Assembly (NCBI RefSeq): GCF_030823405.1
Contig: NZ_JAUSXC010000001.1
Coordinates: forward strand, 2,215,001-2,279,000
Reading direction: 5' to 3'
Length of the DNA: 64,000 bases
Origin: Chryseobacterium ginsenosidimutans
Lineage (GTDB): Bacteria > Bacteroidota > Bacteroidia > Flavobacteriales > Weeksellaceae
Part shown: positions 7,011 through 28,538 of the stretch, piece after piece
Numbering within the stretch: position 1 is the stretch's first letter
Layout: each line of letters opens with the position of its first letter
Position numbers and translations under genes: made by a program
The notes under the pieces: generated by a model
Told to the model about the DNA's origin: nothing
The model's database searches: none
The model's input: the letters and a program-made list of their open reading frames with translations, nothing else

Positions 7011-8996
7011 ATGATTTCTAAGCAGACCATAGATAAAATATTTTCCACAATCCGTGTAGAAGAGATTGTTGGGGAATATGTGCAGTTGAAAAGGGCAGGG
7101 TCTAATTTTAAAGGGCTCAGTCCGTTTCACGATGAAAAATCACCAAGTTTTGTAGTTTCACCGAGCAAACAGATTTGGAAAGATTTCTCGACAGGAAAAG
7201 GAGGGACTGCAATTTCTTTTTTAATGGAAATTGAGAATTTCACCTATCCTGAAGCACTTCGCCATGCTGCAAAAAAGTATGGAATTGAAATTGAAGAAGA
7301 TCAGCGCGAATTTTCTGAAGAAGCAAAAAATGCGCAGTCTGAAAGAGATTTATTATACAAGATTCATGAAATTGCCAATGATTATTTTCAAAATTTTCTT
7401 TGGGAGGTCGAAGAAGGAAAATCAATTGGATTATCTTATTTTAAAGAGCGTGAACTTCGGGATGATATTATCAGAAAATTCCAGTTGGGATATTCTCCGG
7501 AAAAGAAAAATTCTTTTACAGAATTTGCTATTGAAAAGGGATATTCAAAAGAGATATTAGAAAAGTCAGGATTATCAATTTTCCCGGACAATGCGCCGAA
7601 CGGAATTGATCGATTCCGTGAAAGAGTAATGTTCCCGATTCATAGTTTTTCGGGTAGAGTTCTTGGTTTTGGAGCAAGAATTCTTAAAAATAATGTCAAA
7701 ACGGCAAAATACCTCAATTCACCCGAAACCGAAATTTACCACAAATCCAATGTTCTTTATGGGCTAAACCAAAGTAAGCAGTCGATTTCAAGGAAAAATG
7801 TCTGTCTTTTGGTGGAAGGTTATATGGACGTTATTTCGCTTCATATGTCTGGAATTGAGAATGTGGTGGCGAGTTCAGGAACTTCTTTAACGACGGAGCA
7901 GATCAAGTTAATAAAAAGATTAACCGAAAATGTCACCATTCTGTTTGACGGTGATAATGCGGGAATTAAGGCCAGTTTCCGAAGTATTGATATGCTGCTG
8001 ACGGAAGGTATGAACATTCGTGTTCTTCTGTTTCCGGATGGCGACGATCCGGATTCTTTTGCAAGAAAACATCCGCAGGAATATGTAGAAAAGTTCATCG
8101 AAAATGAAGCGATGGATTTTATTGATTTTAAAGCTGAAATTCTTTTAAGAGAAGTCGGCAATGATCCGATAAAAAAGGCTGAAGCGATCAGGGATATTGT
8201 AAAATCGGTTGGTTTTGTTCAGAATGCTTTAAAAAGGGAAGTTTATCTTAAAGAAGTTTCTAATAAATTCGGATTGTCTGAGCAGAGTTTATTCAATGAG
8301 CTGGATGTTCAGAGACAGGTTACCCAAAATCATACGCAACACGTTCAGCAGCAAAAGGAAAGTGCGGCTCCCATAAAAATGGAGATCGTACCGTTGGATG
8401 AAGAAAAAGCCGATCCGTTTTTGTTTGAAGTTTTATTTATGGAAAATAAACTGGTCGATCATATGTTGATGTTTGGTGATATTGTTTTGAAAAGAACGGA
8501 TGAAAAGAACGGAGAATATCAAATTACTGTCATTGAGGAAATCCTTCATCATTTTGATGAGGAGCAGTATCAGTTTTTAGTAAAAGGGAACGAAATAATT
8601 ATTAATCAGGTAAAAGAAGGAATCCAGAATGATGAGCTGCGAAGCGGAAATTTCTTTGTAACCTTCATGGATGAAGAGATTACAACGAAAGTAGTGGACG
8701 CGTTGCTTCCGTTAGATGACCTTGAAAATTGGGCTTCAAGAAATATATTTCCGCCAAATTACGGAGATAAAATTGCCGATCAGGTAAAAGGCGATGTATT
8801 GCTGCATAAATACAGATATATTGATTATTTAATAAAAGAAACGGCAGGCGAACTTGATAAATACAGTGATTCTGATCAGGTAAAATATTTTGAGCTGATA
8901 CAGAAAATTACGTTATTAAAACAGGCTTCTATTCAGCTAAGCAATATCATTGAGTATTCTCCTATCAAAGGAATCTATGTAAATAGGAAAAGATAA
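7011..8996 (+). CDS. dnaG: DNA primase
   Basis: DnaG makes RNA primers at the replication fork. The 661-aa protein has an N-terminal zinc-ribbon-like domain (residues 1-100), a TOPRIM catalytic core (EGYMDV near residue 269 and DGDNAG near 315) and a C-terminal helicase-interaction region. In the CHC2 ribbon the usual Cys-x2-His and Cys-x2-Cys ligands read S37-PFH40 and D58-FST61, so three of four zinc ligands are absent. To my knowledge this is common in flavobacterial primases, so it is likely functional. The start codon follows a perfect -7 box by 4 bp. Confidence 0.95.
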   Translation: MISKQTIDKIFSTIRVEEIVGEYVQLKRAGSNFKGLSPFHDEKSPSFVVSPSKQIWKDFSTGKGGTAISFLMEIENFTYPEALRHAAKKYGIEIEEDQREFSEEAKNAQSERDLLYKIHEIANDYFQNFLWEVEEGKSIGLSYFKERELRDDIIRKFQLGYSPEKKNSFTEFAIEKGYSKEILEKSGLSIFPDNAPNGIDRFRERVMFPIHSFSGRVLGFGARILKNNVKTAKYLNSPETEIYHKSNVLYGLNQSKQSISRKNVCLLVEGYMDVISLHMSGIENVVASSGTSLTTEQIKLIKRLTENVTILFDGDNAGIKASFRSIDMLLTEGMNIRVLLFPDGDDPDSFARKHPQEYVEKFIENEAMDFIDFKAEILLREVGNDPIKKAEAIRDIVKSVGFVQNALKREVYLKEVSNKFGLSEQSLFNELDVQRQVTQNHTQHVQQQKESAAPIKMEIVPLDEEKADPFLFEVLFMENKLVDHMLMFGDIVLKRTDEKNGEYQITVIEEILHHFDEEQYQFLVKGNEIIINQVKEGIQNDELRSGNFFVTFMDEEITTKVVDALLPLDDLENWASRNIFPPNYGDKIADQVKGDVLLHKYRYIDYLIKETAGELDKYSDSDQVKYFELIQKITLLKQASIQLSNIIEYSPIKGIYVNRKR

Positions 8997-21246: not shown

Positions 21247-21549
21247 CGAGTTTTTTATTAATAAGACAAAACTATTGATAAGAAGGTTACAAAACCACTA
21301 CAGAAAATATAATCTTTTGTTAAAAATAAAACCATCTTTATCCCAATGTAGAACCTCCGTCCGTTCGAGTAAAATTATTTGAAGAATAATTTTGTATTGA
21401 GAATATGGGAATATTGGCTTTTTTCATTTAGGGTTGAAATAAAATTGTTTTCAATTGAATATTTATATATTTTTAACAAAATATTATTTGGATTTATATG
21501 TATAACACTATAAATGTTTCCAAATATTACAATGTTAAAAATATATTTA
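21247..21549. other. 303-bp gap: degenerate repeat element and AT-rich upstream region of the DUF262 gene
   Basis: The stretch between the DUF5686 and DUF262 genes holds a degenerate copy of the 24.6-25.8 kb repeat (21357-21404). After it comes about 140 bp of very AT-rich sequence leading to the DUF262 start. I see no convincing TAnnTTTG box close to that start. Confidence 0.6.
21357..21404. repeat. Half-copy of the CGTCAGTTCGAGT...TATCGAGAA repeat
   Basis: CCGTCCGTTCGAGT is followed by a perfect hairpin (AAAATTATT-TGAAG-AATAATTTT) and then TGTATTGAGAAT. This matches the left half of the array units at 24608-25846: the same edges, with a different hairpin between them. It marks the left side of the accessory island. 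Confidence 0.65.
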
Positions 21550-22617
21550 ATGAAAAACTTCGATACCAGAACTTACAGTATTTCTGATTTTATAGAATGG
21601 AATAATAGTAATTTATTGGAATTATCGCCTGACTTTCAAAGAAGGTCAGTTTGGACTGAGAAGGCGAAATCTTATTTAATAGATACCATTATCCGTAGCA
21701 AGCCAATACCTAAGATTTTAATTACACAAAAACTACAAGGTGCAAAAAATGTTAGAGTTGTTGTAGACGGACAACAACGATTAAGAACTATGTTATCATT
21801 TTACAATGGTGATTTTAAAATAAGTCGCGTTCATAATAAAGAATATGGGGGTAAAACATATGATGAATTACCTACTGAATTGCAGAATGAGTTTCTTAAA
21901 TATGAACTTGGAGTTGATTTACTTTTTGATTTAGCGTATGAAGATATTCTTGATATTTTTGCGAGAATTAATTCATATACAGTAAAGTTGCAACCTCAAG
22001 AAATTTTAAATGCGCGTTATGTTGGTTATTTTAAACAAGCTATTTTTCAATATGGATTGAGATATGTAAACTATTTTATTGATAGTGATATTCTAACAAA
22101 AGCTAAAGTTACAAGAATGGCTGAAGCAGAGTTATCAAGTGATCTTTTTGTAGCTTTATTAGATACTGTTAAAACCAATAAAGGTATAGAAACGTATTAT
22201 AAAAAATATGAAGAAGATGAAGGAGAAATACCAAAGGCTTGCATTAAATTTGACAAAACAATGTCTATAATTGGAGCTACTTATCCAGCATATGAGCTTG
22301 CTAATACGAATTGGAAAAGACCACAATTATTTTACACGTTGTTTGTTAGTATTGCGCATCTTCTTTATAAAGTAAAGGGACTAGAGGATATAAAAAATGA
22401 GGTTGTTATAAATGATAAAAATATTGGGAAATTACGAAGCATTTTGGATGAAATTTCATCCAAATATGATTATTTTACGGAAGAAAAAGATGTAGAAATA
22501 CCCAGTGATTATAAAGATTTTATTAATTATTCAAGAAGAGGTACAACAGATACAATAGCAAGAATTTCAAGAGCAAACTTTTTGTCAAAAAAAATTGTTG
22601 ATGGAATAAAGGATTAA
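21550..22617 (+). CDS. DUF262 (ParB/GmrS-like) protein, probable defence component
   Basis: This 355-aa protein belongs to the DUF262 superfamily, a ParB/Srx-like fold that binds or cleaves nucleotides and is common in GmrSD-type restriction and other anti-phage systems. The N-terminal region has SPDFQRRSVWTEKAKSYLID (residues 26-45) and the catalytic-type DGQQR motif at 73-77. IFARINSYTVKLQPQE near residue 140 matches the second family block. There is no C-terminal DUF1524 HNH nuclease; the remainder is helical. The ATG at 21550 is preferred over one 36 bp upstream because family homology begins at MKNFDTRTYS. A HEPN-like gene follows 5 bp later. Base composition is more AT-rich than the neighbouring backbone genes, suggesting transfer. 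Confidence 0.85.
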   Translation: MKNFDTRTYSISDFIEWNNSNLLELSPDFQRRSVWTEKAKSYLIDTIIRSKPIPKILITQKLQGAKNVRVVVDGQQRLRTMLSFYNGDFKISRVHNKEYGGKTYDELPTELQNEFLKYELGVDLLFDLAYEDILDIFARINSYTVKLQPQEILNARYVGYFKQAIFQYGLRYVNYFIDSDILTKAKVTRMAEAELSSDLFVALLDTVKTNKGIETYYKKYEEDEGEIPKACIKFDKTMSIIGATYPAYELANTNWKRPQLFYTLFVSIAHLLYKVKGLEDIKNEVVINDKNIGKLRSILDEISSKYDYFTEEKDVEIPSDYKDFINYSRRGTTDTIARISRANFLSKKIVDGIKD

Positions 22618-22622
22618 TAATT

Positions 22623-23249
22623 ATGAACAAAAAGAGGATTAAAATTTCAGCGGTTTATAATGATTTTATTCAGGAAATTAATAGTCATAAAAAATTAGAT
22701 GAATTAAATCAGGATAACTTTCAAACAAAGAAAATAACTAAGAAGCAATTACATGTTCTAACTGAGTTTGTTTTCTTTAACTCTTTTATTGCTTATGAAA
22801 ATTTTATAAGAGATATTTTCTTGCTGTATGTTTTGGGTAAAAAGAATAATAATAATGACAATGTTATCTCTTATTTAAAGCCAAAAGATTTTTTTCATGC
22901 AGAGAAGCTTATCCAATCGTCAATGAATATTGTAGATTGGAATAGCCCTGATATAATCATAGAACGAGCAGAATTATTCCTGAAGGATGGTTTTCCTATT
23001 AAAATTCAGTACACCACAAACAAAACCAAATTGAATTCATACAAAAGTTTAAGAAATCATATAGCTCACAAATCCTCAAAATCTTTAGAAAGCTACAAAA
23101 AAGTTGTACGCGCTTACTATGGTGTGAATCCTTTAAATACTCCCTCAGTTGGTGAATATCTATTATTGACTTCGAAAGTTGACACTACAAAATATCATCT
23201 GTTAGAAACGTTTGATTTATTTACTACGCTATCCAATAATTTAAAATAA
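22623..23249 (+). CDS. HEPN-like protein paired with DUF262 (probable RNase effector)
   Basis: This 208-aa all-helical protein carries RNHIAH at residues 144-149, the R-x4-H motif of HEPN ribonucleases, just after a helix. It resembles the MAE_28990 / RiboL-PSP class of HEPN proteins; that assignment is by motif and context only. It sits 5 bp downstream of the DUF262 gene and both share one terminator, so they form a two-gene unit. By analogy with other HEPN systems it could cut RNA when triggered, with DUF262 as sensor or controller. The AT-rich codon usage (many AAT and ATA codons) matches its partner and not the surrounding backbone. Confidence 0.7.
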   Translation: MNKKRIKISAVYNDFIQEINSHKKLDELNQDNFQTKKITKKQLHVLTEFVFFNSFIAYENFIRDIFLLYVLGKKNNNNDNVISYLKPKDFFHAEKLIQSSMNIVDWNSPDIIIERAELFLKDGFPIKIQYTTNKTKLNSYKSLRNHIAHKSSKSLESYKKVVRAYYGVNPLNTPSVGEYLLLTSKVDTTKYHLLETFDLFTTLSNNLK

Positions 23250-23358
23250 TTAGAAATAGTTTACTGATTTATAATAATTAGAAATTAAGTATTGAATTAA
23301 ATTACTTTATATTTATCTACAAAAGTTTTTATATTTCTCAGCCACATAATTAATATAT

Positions 23359-23384
23359 AAACCTCGCCCTCCGCGAGGTTTTCC
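23359..23384 (+). terminator. Terminator of the DUF262-HEPN unit
   Basis: AAACCTCGC and GCGAGGTTT form a perfect 9-bp stem around CCTCC, followed by a short T run. It lies 110 bp after the HEPN stop codon. Confidence 0.8.
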
Positions 23385-23463
23385 TATTTCAAAAAAACAA
23401 ACTCCCATCCCATACTATTAAAAAATATTTTTATATTTGTTTTTAAGAATAACAAAAAACAAA

Positions 23464-23804
23464 ATGATGATCTATAAAAATAATCCCGCAGTTCATGCGC
23501 AGGCTTCCAGCACTACCGGTTTCCATAAAAATCTCAATTGTAACCCACAACTTACAGAACTCAAGAATCGGTAAAGTAGTATGGTAGATCGTTCAAGGAG
23601 TTCGAAGACCGCTTCAACCATTTCGAAATGGTGTTTAAGCATTCAGTAGAGATCAACAACAACTTTGTTAGGGCGTTCAAGTGTTTTGTAATGGCAATCA
23701 ACCGTTCCCTTGAGTCCGTCAAGCATTTCGAAGAAGCCATCAACCACTCCGAAGAGGTAATCAAATACAATTTTTTGTTTTACAATACTTTACAGTCTTT
23801 TTAA
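23464..23804 (+). pseudogene. Decayed small gene with coiled, Phe/His/Glu-rich repeats
   Basis: A -7 box TATATTTG (23432-23439) is followed by ATG-ATG at 23464 and a 36-codon frame ending at 23574. In another frame, 23580-23804 is open and encodes a regular amphipathic helix (KEFEDRFNHFEMVF..., VKHFEEAINHSEEVI); its first ATG is at 23628, giving 58 aa. The frames 0, 1 and 2 all have stops between 23572 and 23587, so one indel cannot join the two parts. I read it as a broken gene, though two independent small proteins are possible. No family is recognised. The opposite-strand frame here is an antisense shadow. Confidence 0.4.
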
Positions 23805-23879
23805 GGAAATGTATTTATTCAACAATCAATATATAGTAGACTTCAATTATATTTTTAAACACAAAAAATTAATACCATT

Positions 23880-24570
23880 ATGAAAAAAGATCAGGTAATA
23901 CGTGACTTCAATCTGGCAGATTCTGTTCTGAAACAAAAAGCAGATGAATTGATCGCTCTAATCGACAGAGACATCGCCGAATTTACAGACCGTGGCTACA
24001 ACGCCGCAAAAAAGGCTGAACTGACGACCGCACGAAATACGGTAGACAATTTCCCAAACGATGAACAGCTGGAAGCCATCAAAATGAATCTCACCGAACA
24101 AAAAGATGCCGCCAGAAAAGCACTGGAAAAAACGATGCGCAGTATTTTTAATGGGGCAGAAAATGTTTTCGGACAGGGTAGTGCCAAATACAAGGAGTTC
24201 GGCAATGCCATGATCAGTCAGCAAAGCGATGCAGAGATTGTGCGTGTTGCCAAGATTATGAGCCTTACGGCAGAAAAATATCTTACAGAACTTTCGGACG
24301 AAGGTCTTACTGCAGAGAAAATTGCAACGCTTATTGCCCAACGTAATGCACTGGATGTCGCTATAGATGCACAGGCGCAAGGTATTTCTAATCGGGATGT
24401 CGCCGCAGAAAGTAGAGTAGGCACTCAACAAACTTTATCAGCTGCTCACAAAATACGCAGGCATCGGCCAGGATATTTTCTATGAAACCAACGAAGCGAA
24501 ATACAACGACTATATCATCTATGACACGCCAAGCGGACTGCCGGAAACTGCGCCTACAAATCCTGTGTAA
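23880..24570 (+). pseudogene. Frameshifted gene for a helical protein of unknown family
   Basis: The frame starting at 23880 encodes an Ala/Lys/Glu-rich helical protein (MKKDQVIRDFNLADSVLKQK...) that turns into non-native sequence after about residue 180 and stops at 24485. In the +1 frame from about 24424, codons continue sensibly as LNKLYQLLTKYAGIGQDIFY...NEAKYNDYIIYD and stop at 24570. One extra base near 24421-24424 explains this; the repaired protein would be about 229 aa. It could be a true pseudogene or a base-calling error. Composition is less AT-rich than the DUF262-HEPN pair just upstream. The family is not recognised, and no membrane segment or signal is present. Confidence 0.65.
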
Positions 24571-24607
24571 ATTACGCCCTATCAAATTCGCTCCGTCAGT
24601 CACTCTC

Positions 24608-25846
24608 CGTCAGTTCGAGTGTTTTCGCAGCGAAGCGTAGAAAATGTATCGAGAACCAATGAGCTACAGACAGCATATGGATCAAAAATTTCTCGATACG
24701 GTTTTTTCAAAACCTACTCGAAGTGACGACGTCCTTCTACTATATCAAAGTTGCTCCGTCAGTCGCATCGTCAGTTCGAGTGTTTTTCGCAGCGTAGCGG
24801 AGAAAAATGTATCGAGAACGAGTGAATTGTAAACTGCCCATAAATCAAAAACTTCTCGATACGATTTTCAAAACCTACTCGAAGTGACGACGTACTTATA
24901 ACAAAGTTGCTGTGTCAGTCGCATCGTCAGTTCGAGTGTTTTCGCAGCGCAGCGGAGAAAAATGTATCGAGAACAAGTGAATTGTAGACTGCCCATAAAT
25001 CAAAAACTTCTCGATACGATTTTTCAAATCTACTCGAAGTGACGTCTCCGTTTACATTATAGCTAAGTCAGTCGTATCGTCAGTTCGAGTGTTTTTCGCA
25101 GCGCAGCGGAGAAAAATGTATCGAGAACCAGTGAGCCACAGACAGCATATGGATCAAAAACTTCTCGATACGGTTTTTTCAAAACCTACTCGAAGTGACG
25201 TTCGTTCAATCAAAACTTATATACAATTAATCATGCAAACTTCATTTGTCTACATCTTACTTTGTGCCGACAACACCTATTACACCGGTGTAACAGAAAA
25301 TGTATACAAACGTTTTGACGAACATCAGGACGGTAAACATTTTGGTTCTTACACCTTCACAAGACGTCCGTTACAATTAGTATATTTCTGCCAATTTATG
25401 GATATTGAACAAGCGATTGTTTTTGAGAAAAAGATTAAGAAATGGTCGCAGGCAAAAAAATTAGCATTAATTGAAGGAAGGTATGAAGACCTGCCTAATC
25501 TTGCGAAAAAGAATTTTAATAAGTAAATTATTTCTCTTATGAATTATATCCGTCAGTCGAACTCCATCAGTTCGAGTGTTTTTCGCAGCGTAGCGGAGAA
25601 AAATGTATCGAGAACAAATGAACCATAGACATACTATGAATGAAAAACTTCTCGATACGATTTTTTCAAATCTACTCGAAGTGACGTCTCCGTTTACATT
25701 ATAGCTAAGTCAGTCTTATCGTCAGTTCGAGTGTTTTTCGCAACATAGCGCAGAAAAATGTATCGAGAATCGGTGAATGACAAACTCCGGTCGTTGGATC
25801 ACCAACTTCTCGATACGATTTTTTCAAAAATCTACTCGAAGTGACG
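24608..25846. repeat. Six-copy array of ~120-bp inverted-repeat elements
   Basis: Copies lie at 24608-24728, 24769-24889, 24925-25044, 25078-25200, 25565-25686 and 25720-25846. Each begins CGTCAGTTCGAGTG, has an internal hairpin (TTTTTCGCAGCG...GGAGAAAAA), then TGTATCGAGAAC, a variable ~35-bp centre, then TTCTCGATACG and CTACTCGAAGTGACG. The outer and inner edges are inverted repeats of each other, so each unit can fold into a long stem. The 33-40-bp gaps between neighbours are also similar (for example AGCTAAGTCAGTC before copies 4 and 6). Copies 4 and 5 are separated by a GIY-YIG gene. No transposase is present, and unit length rules out CRISPR. The 24571-25232 gap contains nothing else. 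Confidence 0.9.
25233..25526 (+). CDS. Small GIY-YIG nuclease-domain protein inside the repeat array
   Basis: This 97-aa protein is a stand-alone GIY-YIG domain: VYILLCADNTYYTGVT (GIY/YIG strands), the conserved Arg in VYKRFDEH, YTFTRRPLQLVYF, and the IEQAIVFEKKIKKWSQAKK block with the catalytic-type Glu. Such proteins are predicted DNA endonucleases related to UvrC and homing-type nucleases. The ATG at 25233 was chosen because upstream codons read into repeat copy 4. The gene lies exactly where the inter-repeat gap would be, with copies 1-4 upstream and 5-6 downstream on both sides within 40 bp. A link between the nuclease and the repeats is inference. Confidence 0.85.
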   Translation: MQTSFVYILLCADNTYYTGVTENVYKRFDEHQDGKHFGSYTFTRRPLQLVYFCQFMDIEQAIVFEKKIKKWSQAKKLALIEGRYEDLPNLAKKNFNK

Positions 25847-25934
25847 AAAAGATAGACTTTATCAAATAATAACGATCCCTTTCAGTTTCTGAAAGGGATC
25901 GTTATTTAATTAATTTCTGATTAGTAAACTGGAA
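25527..25934. other. 408-bp gap: repeat copies 5-6 and alaS terminator
   Basis: This gap between the GIY-YIG gene and alaS holds repeat copies 5 and 6 (25565-25846) and a long terminator hairpin. No further open frame of interest is seen. Confidence 0.8.
25868..25906. terminator. Long perfect terminator hairpin after alaS
   Basis: An 18-bp perfect stem (AATAACGATCCCTTTCAG with its complement) closes on TTT. It lies 28 bp beyond the alaS stop on the minus strand. Confidence 0.85.
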
Positions 25935-28538
25935 TTAAATATTCAAAGCCTTTTGATACGCATTTTCCAGACCATCAAGATTTTTACCGCCAGCTGTAGC
26001 GAAACCTGGGTTTCCGCCGCCGCCGCCCTGGATTTCTCTTGCTAAATCTTTAATAAGTGCTCCAGCCTGATAAATTCCTGCTAAATCATCGGAAACACCA
26101 ACGGTAATCATTGGTTTTCCGTCTGCATCAGAAAGAATAATCGTTATTGAAGTCGGAATTTCTCTCTTCAACTGGAAGACGATATCTTTTACCGAACCGG
26201 CATCCAAAGAAGTTTTTTTTACCAAAAGTAATTTATCGCCTTTCTGCTCGTAAGCTCCTTTCCAGTCGCTGATTTCGCCTTTTGCTTTTTCTTTTTTCAA
26301 AGATTCAACTTCTGATTTCAATGAAGTGTTTTCTTCGATTAATTTCTCGATAGATCGTACAATATCTTTAGATTTTAATAATTGAGAAAGTTCGGAAACC
26401 TGTTTTTCTAAATTCTTAAAATATTCTTCAGATTTATCTCCTGAAATCGCTTCAATTCTTCTGATTCCCGCAGCAGCAGAACTTTCAGAAGTGATCTTGA
26501 AATGACCTATTTCGCTTGTGTTTTTAACGTGAGTTCCACCGCAAAGTTCCTTCGAACTTCCAAACTGAATCATTCTCACACTATCCCCATATTTTTCCCC
26601 AAACAAAGCCATTGCCCCTTTGTCAATCGCTTCTTTGATAGGGATATTTCTGAATTCCTGTAAGGCAATACTTTCTTTAATCTTGTGGTTAACTTTTTCT
26701 TCAACCAAAGCCAATTCTTCCTCCGTCATTTTATTGAAATGGGAGAAGTCAAAACGCAGATAATCAGGGCCAACGTAAGAACCTTTTTGTTCAACGTGAG
26801 TTCCCAACACTTCTCTCAACGCTTCATGCAATAAGTGAGTTACCGAGTGGTTTGCCTGAGAATTTTTTCTGTCGGTTGCCTCTACTTTAGCATAAAAAAC
26901 GGCACCTGCATCTTTCGGAAGTCCGTTAATTAGTGAAATAATTAATCCGTTTTCCTTTTTTGTTTCTAATACTTCAAAACTTTCAACAGCATTTTCAAGA
27001 ACGCCTTTATCACCAACCTGTCCACCACCTTCCGGGTAGAAAGGGGAGTTGCTCAAGACCACCTGATAAAATTCGCCGTCTTTATTTTCTACTTTTCTGT
27101 ATCTTGTAATATAGGTTTCAGCTTCAATTTGATCGTAACCGACAAACTTTTCTTCTTTTTCTTCCAAGGTTACCCAGTCGTATACTTTTTGAGCAGAATC
27201 AGCCTTTGAACGAATTTTTTGCTTTTTCATTTCGGCTTCAAAACCTTCTTCATCGATTGTCAAGCCTTTTTCTTCTGCAATAATTCTCGTTAAATCATCC
27301 GGGAAACCGTAAGTGTCATATAATTCGAAAACTTCTTCGCTTGGTAAAACTTTAGAATTATTGGAAATTGTTTGCTGAATTAGTTTTTCAACCCTGATTA
27401 AACCGTTTTCAATGGTTCGTAAGAAAGATTCTTCTTCACTTTTAATCACTTCAGTTACCAACGTTCCCTGTTTCTCAAGCTCTGGGAAGAATGTACCCAT
27501 TTGCTCCTGAAGAACGGCAACCAGTTGGAAAAGGAAAGGCTCTTTCATATCCAGGAATCGGTAAGAATAAGAAATTCCTCTTCTTAAAATCCTTCTGATC
27601 ACGTAACCTGCGCCTCCGTTTGAAGGCAACTGTCCGTCTGCAATCGCAAATGAAACCGCTCTGATGTGATCTACCACAACACGGATCGCAATATCTTTTT
27701 CGTTTTCTAAAATCCCTGTGTATTTCTTGCCTGAAAGCTCTTCAACTTTAGCAATTAACGGTGTGAAAACGTCTGTATCATAATTGGAAGATTTTCCTTG
27801 AAGTGCCATACAAAGACGTTCAAAGCCCATTCCTGTATCAACGTGTTGCTGAGGAAGTTTTTCTAGAGATTTGTCCGCTTTTCTATTGAATTCCATGAAA
27901 ACCAAATTCCAGACTTCTACAACCTGAGGATGGTCGTTATTCACCAATTCCAATCCTGAAACTTTAGTTTTTTCTTCCGGAGTTCTCAAGTCAACGTGGA
28001 TTTCTGAACACGGTCCGCACGGTCCGCTTTCACCCATTTCCCAGAAATTATCTTTTTTGTTTCCATTGATAATTCTGTCTTCAGAAATGTGAGATTTCCA
28101 GAAATCATAGGCATCCTGATCTCTCTCAAGGTTTTCCGAAGCGTCTCCTTCAAAAATCGTTACGTACAGGTTTTCTTTCGGAATTCCGAAAACTTCCGTC
28201 AATAGTTCCCAGGCAAAAGCAATAGCATCTTTTTTGAAATAATCACCAAAAGACCAGTTTCCCAACATTTCAAACATGGTGTGGTGATAAGTATCTCTAC
28301 CCACATCATCCAAGTCATTATGCTTCCCTGAAACTCTCAGACATTTCTGTGTATCGGCAATTCTTGGGGCGGTAGGCGTTTTGTATCCTAAGAAAAAATC
28401 TTTGAACTGCGTCATCCCAGAGTTGGAAAACATAAGTGTAGGGTCGTCTTTCAGCACAATTGGCGCCGAAGGAACGATAAGGTGGTCTTTACTTTTAAAA
28501 TAATCTAAAAATTTTTGACGAATCTCTTGTGATGTCAT
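25935..28538 (-). CDS. alaS: Alanyl-tRNA synthetase
   Basis: AlaS charges tRNA-Ala. The 867-aa protein has the class II catalytic core at the N-terminus (SAPIVLKDDPTLMFSNSGMTQF), with the GRDTYHHTMFEMLGNWSFGDYF motif 2 region near residue 80. The editing domain has HSVTHLLHEALR and CGGTHVKNTSEIGHF, the zinc-coordinating His/His/Cys/His set. The C-terminal region (residues about 720-867) has a coiled segment and the GGGGGNPGFATAGG C-Ala motif. A TAAATTTG -7 box (minus, 28578-28585) lies 40 bp upstream. It bounds the right side of the accessory island. Confidence 0.97.
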   Translation of the reverse strand: MTSQEIRQKFLDYFKSKDHLIVPSAPIVLKDDPTLMFSNSGMTQFKDFFLGYKTPTAPRIADTQKCLRVSGKHNDLDDVGRDTYHHTMFEMLGNWSFGDYFKKDAIAFAWELLTEVFGIPKENLYVTIFEGDASENLERDQDAYDFWKSHISEDRIINGNKKDNFWEMGESGPCGPCSEIHVDLRTPEEKTKVSGLELVNNDHPQVVEVWNLVFMEFNRKADKSLEKLPQQHVDTGMGFERLCMALQGKSSNYDTDVFTPLIAKVEELSGKKYTGILENEKDIAIRVVVDHIRAVSFAIADGQLPSNGGAGYVIRRILRRGISYSYRFLDMKEPFLFQLVAVLQEQMGTFFPELEKQGTLVTEVIKSEEESFLRTIENGLIRVEKLIQQTISNNSKVLPSEEVFELYDTYGFPDDLTRIIAEEKGLTIDEEGFEAEMKKQKIRSKADSAQKVYDWVTLEEKEEKFVGYDQIEAETYITRYRKVENKDGEFYQVVLSNSPFYPEGGGQVGDKGVLENAVESFEVLETKKENGLIISLINGLPKDAGAVFYAKVEATDRKNSQANHSVTHLLHEALREVLGTHVEQKGSYVGPDYLRFDFSHFNKMTEEELALVEEKVNHKIKESIALQEFRNIPIKEAIDKGAMALFGEKYGDSVRMIQFGSSKELCGGTHVKNTSEIGHFKITSESSAAAGIRRIEAISGDKSEEYFKNLEKQVSELSQLLKSKDIVRSIEKLIEENTSLKSEVESLKKEKAKGEISDWKGAYEQKGDKLLLVKKTSLDAGSVKDIVFQLKREIPTSITIILSDADGKPMITVGVSDDLAGIYQAGALIKDLAREIQGGGGGNPGFATAGGKNLDGLENAYQKALNI

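Follow-up and report, generated by a model that had tools for sequence, protein, structure and literature searches.

A small GIY-YIG nuclease gene within an array of CGTCA-tagged hairpins: a candidate nuclease-REP system

The hairpin array and its nuclease gene

In the 64-kb window, which is the whole stretch of DNA that was analyzed, six inverted units of 120-127 nt each are found at 24608-25846, and a gene for a small GIY-YIG nuclease (P0001) is located between the fourth and the fifth of them (Table 1). The sequence-only reading of this DNA had described six similar foldable units of about 120 bp with conserved gaps of 33-40 bp, one of them replaced exactly by the gene. Units and gaps were borne out. 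The spacings between successive units are 40, 35, 33, 364, and 33 nt, of which only the fourth holds the gene, and all 12 half-units were detected, 11 with the tag CGTCA and one, the left half of unit 5, with CATCA. The gene does sit between units 4 and 5, but the 364 nt comprise the gene plus 32 nt on its 5′ side and 38 nt on its 3′ side, which makes "exactly" slightly too strong.

Outside the array, the generic hairpin pattern described below has a single match in the window (8528-8596). A genome-wide count, which had been proposed as a check, returned the array and few more copies in the 4.30-Mb genome, a single contig (Table 1).

The array is followed by a perfect inverted repeat, and inverted repeats resembling it were seen by eye in several relatives. 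Beyond it lies a gene on the minus strand (25935-28538), which we take to be alaS. On the other side, the array adjoins a conserved hypothetical gene (23880-24485) whose product has 201 aa here, whereas several relatives have about 25-33 aa more. A frameshift seems to have occurred in the genome of the window, since the end of the gene reads in a different frame from about 24420 (by eye). In addition, two adjacent genes at 21514-23249 resemble a small two-gene defence system. One encodes a GmrSD_N-type protein (81.7 bits; 113.5 bits with PADLOC NsnA), and the product of the other, 208 aa long, matches HEC-01B weakly (17.9 bits).

Table 1. Features of the array in the window (window positions) and further hairpin copies in the genome (genome positions)
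Feature	Position	Strand	Description
Unit 1	24608..24728	+	head-to-head hairpin dimer; halves 24608-24656 (+), 24689-24728 (-)
Unit 2	24769..24889	+	dimer; halves 24769-24819 (+), 24852-24889 (-)
Unit 3	24925..25044	+	dimer; halves 24925-24974 (+), 25007-25044 (-)
Unit 4	25078..25200	+	dimer; halves 25078-25128 (+), 25161-25200 (-)
GIY-YIG nuclease gene, 97 aa (P0001)	25233..25526	+	stop codon included; PF01541, 60.1 bits
Unit 5	25565..25686	+	dimer; halves 25565-25615 (+, tag CATCA), 25648-25686 (-)
Unit 6	25720..25846	+	dimer; halves 25720-25770 (+), 25806-25846 (-)
Perfect 18-nt inverted repeat 3′ of array	25868..25906	no strand	probable terminator, end of putative alaS
Two further dimers	genome 1584124-1584346		extra copies
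One further dimer	genome 3279323-3279442		extra copy
Single half	genome 3282180		extra copy

P0001 matches the profile PF01541 with 60.1 bits (cut-off 22.6). The catalytic residues of GIY-YIG nucleases are two tyrosines, an arginine, and a glutamate. Among 29 sequences, residues Y7, H31, and E65 of P0001 are invariant, and Y17, G19, and R27 are kept in at least 90%. The structure model (pLDDT 89) has its best fold match in 1zg2 (E 1.1e-5, rmsd 10.9, TM 0.55), the sole match below 1e-3, followed by 1ywl and then Slx1. The nearest solved folds are thus Slx1 and the UPF0213 proteins 1zg2 and 1ywl, which are like P0001 in fold and size. Searches with the nuclease gave no match in NCBIfam and at most weak matches in PADLOC (best 15.3 bits). 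Elsewhere in the genome, PF01541 has one further match in a 600-aa frame, which we take by its size to be UvrC. A homing endonuclease of an intron or intein was ruled out, as the gene is intergenic and its flanks are the repeats. In a phage collection, 23 records match the nuclease, all with less than 60% identity.

Hairpin design and its association with the nuclease

Each unit consists of one plus half and one minus half, i.e., it is a head-to-head pair of REP-like hairpins. A half is a tagged hairpin of 38-51 nt that reads CGTCA, clamp base S, TTCGAGT, a variable and often self-foldable arm, TATCGAGAA, and clamp base S′. Its shorter core comprises the CGTCA tag, the clamp, TTCGAG, the arm, CGAGAA, and the complementary clamp, and in the halves of the window 16-29 nt separate the two core motifs. 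With S and S′ unconstrained in the search, the two bases of a half are complementary in 194 of 208 cases, compared with 96.1 expected if they were independent. These halves originate from 47 of 81 loci, the 81 being the window plus 80 relatives, which were the best of 217 found in genome contigs; among unique halves the clamp pairs in 161 of 173. Across the unit, the clamp bases are unpairable in 51 of the 54 unique head-to-head dimers counted, and in 47 of these 54 the clamp is G in the left half and C in the right one. Because the clamps pair within the halves and rarely across the unit, the half, a tagged hairpin, is the selected unit rather than the 120-bp palindrome, and pairing of the whole unit as the selected structure was ruled out. 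The 120-bp inverted repeats that had been proposed as the element are real, but selection acts on their halves.

The CGAG and CGAG stretches beside the clamp are predicted to form two G.A pairs between C-G pairs, a tandem G.A step. Other subfamilies have T-A in place of the outer C-G pair (TGAG..CGAA), the plan being unchanged. Folded as single-stranded DNA with standard energies, which handle G.A pairs poorly, units 2, 3, and 4 (with ends that deviate by 1-4 nt) reach z values of -4.3, -5.8, and -7.0, each better than 200 of 200 shuffles, and four single halves give -2.2, +1.8, +0.05, and -0.2 (the last a partial half), none of which stands out. The unremarkable values of the single halves are a point against a very stable hairpin.

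Since the hairpins flank the gene and come after alaS, and three folded units are stable (as DNA), they might act as RNA, either as terminators or as autoregulatory mRNA structures for the nuclease gene. This seems improbable, as a six-unit array is far beyond the needs of a terminator and both hairpin orientations occur on both sides of the gene. Furthermore, an Rfam search of 23000-27000 gave zero matches, and the covariation maintains the half and not the whole unit.

Generic tagged hairpins lie within 600 nt of the nuclease gene at 80 of the 81 loci, which are here and below treated singly, with kinship ignored. The generic pattern (tag, at least two clamp pairs, G.A core) was written after the hairpins of both clades had been inspected; it is counted 375 times in 93,938 nt near the gene, 79 times in 576 kb far from it, and once in 939,330 nt of shuffled flanks. 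The sole locus without it (L074) has near-copies with a mismatched clamp. A stricter motif is present within 800 nt at 78 of 81 loci and was counted 401 times in 124.5 kb near the gene and 62 times in 545 kb at a distance. Among the best 80 of 217 relatives, the 122.9 kb that lie within 800 nt of the gene contain 251 exact cores of the window's clade, compared with 30 in the 460.6 kb farther out. In a second clade among the 80 this core is absent, with hairpins such as TCGAG-CGCAG-TCGAGA instead.

As judged from these sequences, the link between nuclease and hairpins is real and old. The sequence-only reading had compared the layout to that of REP elements and their RAYT transposases, with a GIY-YIG nuclease as the enzyme, which is supported, and had allowed that the repeats were merely an insertion target. 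The latter is very unlikely because the conserved TTCGAGT/TATCGAGAA edges follow the nuclease over many genera. A gene that landed in a repeat array as a passenger would agree with the gene-less orphan arrays presented below, but it is contradicted by the 80 of 81 loci across many neighbourhoods and by the type-specific pairing, and we consider it extremely improbable.

At the 63 two-sided loci (stricter motif), the nearest halves within 400 nt have their tags outward from the gene in 36 cases, and the remaining arrangements account for 14, 9, and 4; 18 loci are one-sided or empty. The window shows one of the minority arrangements, with the gene between dimers and not within a dimer. Very similar GIY-YIG genes, each with dimers, also occur in tandem, four in L160 (G160:C1:1618540-1623250) and two in L158 (G114:C1:2381190-2384730).

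The neighbourhoods were compared by the two nearest frames per side of the 81 loci. The nuclease gene is located beside alaS at ten of them, nine of Chryseobacterium and the window, and is without a shared neighbour at 30; other lineages share other neighbours. For the dispersed dimers, a comparison of the flanks of the pair at 1584124-1584346 with three relatives revealed no clean empty site. One dimer stands at this site in G281 and in G212 and none in G214, but the intergenic DNA has diverged, so that the insertion boundary is unreadable. Movement of the putative nuclease-hairpin element is plausible. In another genome (G241, C10:185996-187505, L256), the matches to the region of the dimer at 3279323 show a period of about 200 nt, i.e., the dimer with its flank in tandem, which is present in one copy in the genome of the window.

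Distribution across genomes and subfamilies

In a survey of 296 genomes of the family, 33 encode a close homologue (E at most 1e-35). The exact dimer core is present in 30 of these 33 genomes and in 41 of the 263 others (Fisher p 2.8e-18, kinship ignored), the medians being 6 and 0, respectively. The maximum is 23 cores per genome, and a reversed control pattern occurs once in each of 6 genomes. The proposed check for enrichment of the repeat together with this GIY-YIG subfamily was thus positive. The close homologue occurs without an exact dimer core in G037, G062, and G258, the latter two having generic hairpins at the gene. Abundant repeats without such a nuclease had been named as evidence against the link, and this evidence exists in part. 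For G083 (15 dimers) and G135 (7 dimers), the PF01541 search yields UvrC-sized GIY-YIG frames only, and G145 (23 dimers) has only two distant small GIY-YIG copies with none of these hairpins nearby. These three genomes count against a strict dependence of the repeats on the nuclease, as does G194 (9 dimers), which has one broken and one distant small GIY-YIG copy.

The alaS locus was analyzed in 31 loci, consisting of the 30 best alaS matches given as loci (own genome included) and G194, which was chosen for its array. Seven have the nuclease gene, each with 6-11 intact halves. Of the 24 loci without the gene, two are truncated by a contig end, after 315 and 462 nt. Intact halves are absent from 20 of the 24, number one or two at three, and number 15 in G194. 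Decayed dimers persist at several of the 20 (by eye). The array of G194 (L236, G194:C12:309400-312400) is a homogeneous array of dimers at the alaS locus, where a nuclease homologue was not found. In our reading, the nuclease was lost first and the repeats then decayed, G194 being a recent loss; the reverse order is also possible.

A further sample comprised 42 gene copies from 38 of 39 additional loci (L243 gave no match), in which at least five genes duplicate genes of the 81 loci. Hairpins accompany 31 of the 32 copies that are at least 47% identical to P0001, and generic hairpins accompany one of the ten copies below 46%. Clade homologues without repeats, also named in advance as evidence against the link, were therefore not encountered in the window's clade, apart from one of the 81 loci, but do occur among the distant paralogues. 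Several of the copies below 46% are flanked by other short repeats, as seen from shared 10-mers.

Nine genomes have at least two sampled subfamilies, and in seven of them (G116, G263, G138, G271, G154, G232, and G062) the paralogues carry different hairpins, e.g., CGTCA..TTCGAG, TGTCA..GGCTGAG, and TGTCA..CCCTGAG. In G114 and G258 the second nuclease gene is without hairpins. When 120 nucleases are placed on a tree (of 123, three were dropped for stop codons), the hairpin type, given as four labels, changes 12 times compared with a mean of 52.7 after shuffling, with none of 200 shuffles as low; this tree has few columns, 63 of its 112 inner branches are open, and near-copies inflate the contrast. 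The pattern suggests that every subfamily of the nuclease is paired with a hairpin of its own and that both evolve together, so that nuclease and hairpins would form one evolving system.

Homologues in other phyla, known repeats, and proposed action

A tblastn search of a plasmid collection with P0001 gave 51 records, of which 14 were examined. Recurring, near-perfect hairpins with a CGTC or CCTC tag were found within 500 nt of the gene at four of these loci, in Azospirillum lipoferum, Sinorhizobium meliloti, Novosphingobium aromaticivorans, and Rhizobium CIAT894. L139, with three dissimilar hairpins that a stricter scan dropped, was left uncounted. With two of the flanked proteins as queries, 42 and 33 records were obtained, and 12 were examined, chosen for variety. 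Tagged hairpins lie within 400 nt at ten of these 12, which is not a random sample because the batch was picked by likeness to flanked genes. In both batches together, the gene is flanked by such hairpins at 14 of 26 loci, all 14 Proteobacterial, and by none at 12. Three records of this collection with 2.2 to 4.9 Mb (NZ_CP119140.1, NZ_AP026896.1, and NZ_CP069303.1) look like chromosomes filed as plasmids.

At the 26 loci, 54 hairpins are found in 20.8 kb near the gene and 49 in 162 kb far from it. When the tag is narrowed to [CT]GTC, 37 near and 32 far remain, at 11 of the 26 loci. With three other tags, the near and far counts are 9 and 15, 4 and 7, and 1 and 5, so the density of palindromes as such is somewhat raised near the gene. 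Tags bracket the gene outward at 8 of 12 two-sided Proteobacterial loci (by eye), and two genes on one S. meliloti plasmid (L142 and L285) have different hairpins. Around one YazA gene of B. subtilis (L149), tagged hairpins are absent.

The outward bracketing in both sets of two-sided loci invites the explanation that the nuclease mobilizes the hairpins in the way proposed for RAYT transposases and GTAG REPs. Hairpin-gene-hairpin would then be the autonomous element (a REPtron) and the 120-bp dimers its gene-less derivatives. Dimers are indeed dispersed in some genomes, and the neighbourhoods vary by lineage, with no shared neighbour at 30 of 81 loci. We nevertheless regard this as unlikely, given that no clean empty site was found in the comparison above, that the gene keeps its place beside alaS at ten of the 81 loci (nine of Chryseobacterium and the window), and that copy numbers are low, no genome among the 296 having more than 23 exact dimer cores. 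In addition, a GIY-YIG nuclease alone is not known to join strands.

A homologue in N. gonorrhoeae is 55.9% identical to the Rhizobium protein and 39% identical to P0001 over 79 residues, and nine CGTC-1-like hairpins lie within 400 nt of it. We presume this homologue to be Ssn (site-specific single-stranded nuclease), a GIY-YIG nuclease of Neisseria which is reported to cut its cognate repeated sequence, and only as single strands. Ssn reportedly has many homologues, each with its own sequences. If so, the principle of pairing a GIY-YIG nuclease with cognate repeats is already known, and the 2025 paper on Ssn may already state part of the present findings. P0001 is likewise a small GIY-YIG protein, homologous to the presumed Ssn and with candidate cognate repeats by its gene. 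The window's clade differs from Ssn in that its Bacteroidota hairpins have a predicted tandem G.A step and long arms, form dimer arrays, and have few genome copies.

By analogy, and as reported for Ssn, P0001 might control transformation or recombination by cutting incoming single strands with cognate hairpins. The kinship of P0001 with the gonococcal homologue and the position of the latter within CGTC-1/dRS3-type repeats are in favour of this role, but the genome of the window has few copies, so that little transforming DNA would be affected; we regard this role as a real possibility, at slightly less than even weight.

CGTC REPs were defined by Di Nocera et al. (2013; PMC3733652), apparently without a dedicated transposase. 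In that survey, they occur in five phyla, the enzyme handling them is left open, and the CGTC-1 elements of Neisseriae are equated with dRS3 repeats. A CGTC REP is described there by a CGTC, TGTC, or CCTC tag, an 8-9-bp stem starting with A-T pairs, a 4-5-nt loop, and a CCA tail (PMC3733652), a stem, loop, and tail description which many of the Proteobacterial hairpins match. With these REPs, whose hosts include Bacteroidetes, the window hairpins share the terminal unpaired tag, the hairpin, and the head-to-head dimers. In contrast, the Bacteroidota stems are longer and imperfect, with clamp and predicted G.A step, and lack the CCA tail. The 2013 survey finds no dedicated transposase; here, GIY-YIG genes are flanked by such repeats.

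GTAG REPs and their RAYT genes provide the second comparison, since their enzyme gene is flanked by tagged palindromes that are also found elsewhere (PMC2817692, PMC3116915), as is the nuclease gene of the window. However, the enzyme here is a GIY-YIG protein rather than a Y1 transposase and the tag is CGTC rather than GTAG. A Y1_Tnp search of the genome gave none above the cut-off of 23, with a single 22-bit match 1.9 Mb from the array. Among the matches listed in the open-licence literature, no title links GIY-YIG genes to these repeats, and in the passages considered of a 2025 REP survey (PMC12306157) GIY-YIG is not named and CGTC appears only within the reference list. Among these open-licence matches we found neither the link to the CGTC-REP class nor the outward bracketing, the Bacteroidota G.A-core hairpin, or the subfamily-by-subfamily matching.

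The association, the orientation, the subfamily specificity, and the covariation within the hairpin are established at the level of sequence. The locus is therefore best described, and with good likelihood, as a nuclease-REP system in which a small GIY-YIG protein would cut a tagged hairpin in single-stranded DNA, with subfamily-specific hairpins coevolving. P0001 is probably a hairpin-specific and single-strand-specific nuclease with cognate REPs, akin to Ssn. The single-stranded substrate is suggested by the hairpin covariation, the predicted tandem G.A step, and the kinship with the presumed Ssn of Neisseria. The protein would recognize the CGTCA-clamp-TTCGAG-arm-CGAGAA-clamp′ hairpin once the DNA is single-stranded and would cut in or beside it, near the tag. 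With hairpin dimers surrounding its own gene and few copies elsewhere, such cuts may modulate entry, recombination, or replication of repeat-carrying DNA and may keep the hairpin arrays homogeneous. The repeats may also transpose actively, though this is less certain. Mobilization of the hairpins and control of transformation are special cases of this nuclease-REP reading, and the probabilities expressed here consequently do not sum to one.

More tentatively, and with somewhat more doubt than confidence, CGTC-type REPs could, across phyla, have small GIY-YIG nucleases as their dedicated enzymes. These would form a second, transposase-free class of REP-enzyme systems, with clamp and core matched to the lineage, as a tandem G.A step in Bacteroidota and as a plain stem in Proteobacteria, and cuts at the tag would maintain the repeats and drive their spread. 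A large class of bacterial repeats may have its missing partners in such enzymes. The question of the CGTC-REP enzyme is directly testable, given the flanked small GIY-YIG genes in several Proteobacteria and the related hairpins in Bacteroidota. Furthermore, the nuclease-hairpin pairs are a large natural set with predictable targets, useful for a specificity code and perhaps for DNA tools.

Finally, the palindromes CCTGAGCTTGTCGAAGG and GTCATTGCGAGGAGCGA, the latter assembled from 10-mers, adjoin other small GIY-YIG genes (L152, L162, L164, and L238). Both are widespread repeats, and as they adjoin such genes, these common repeats may have nuclease partners too.
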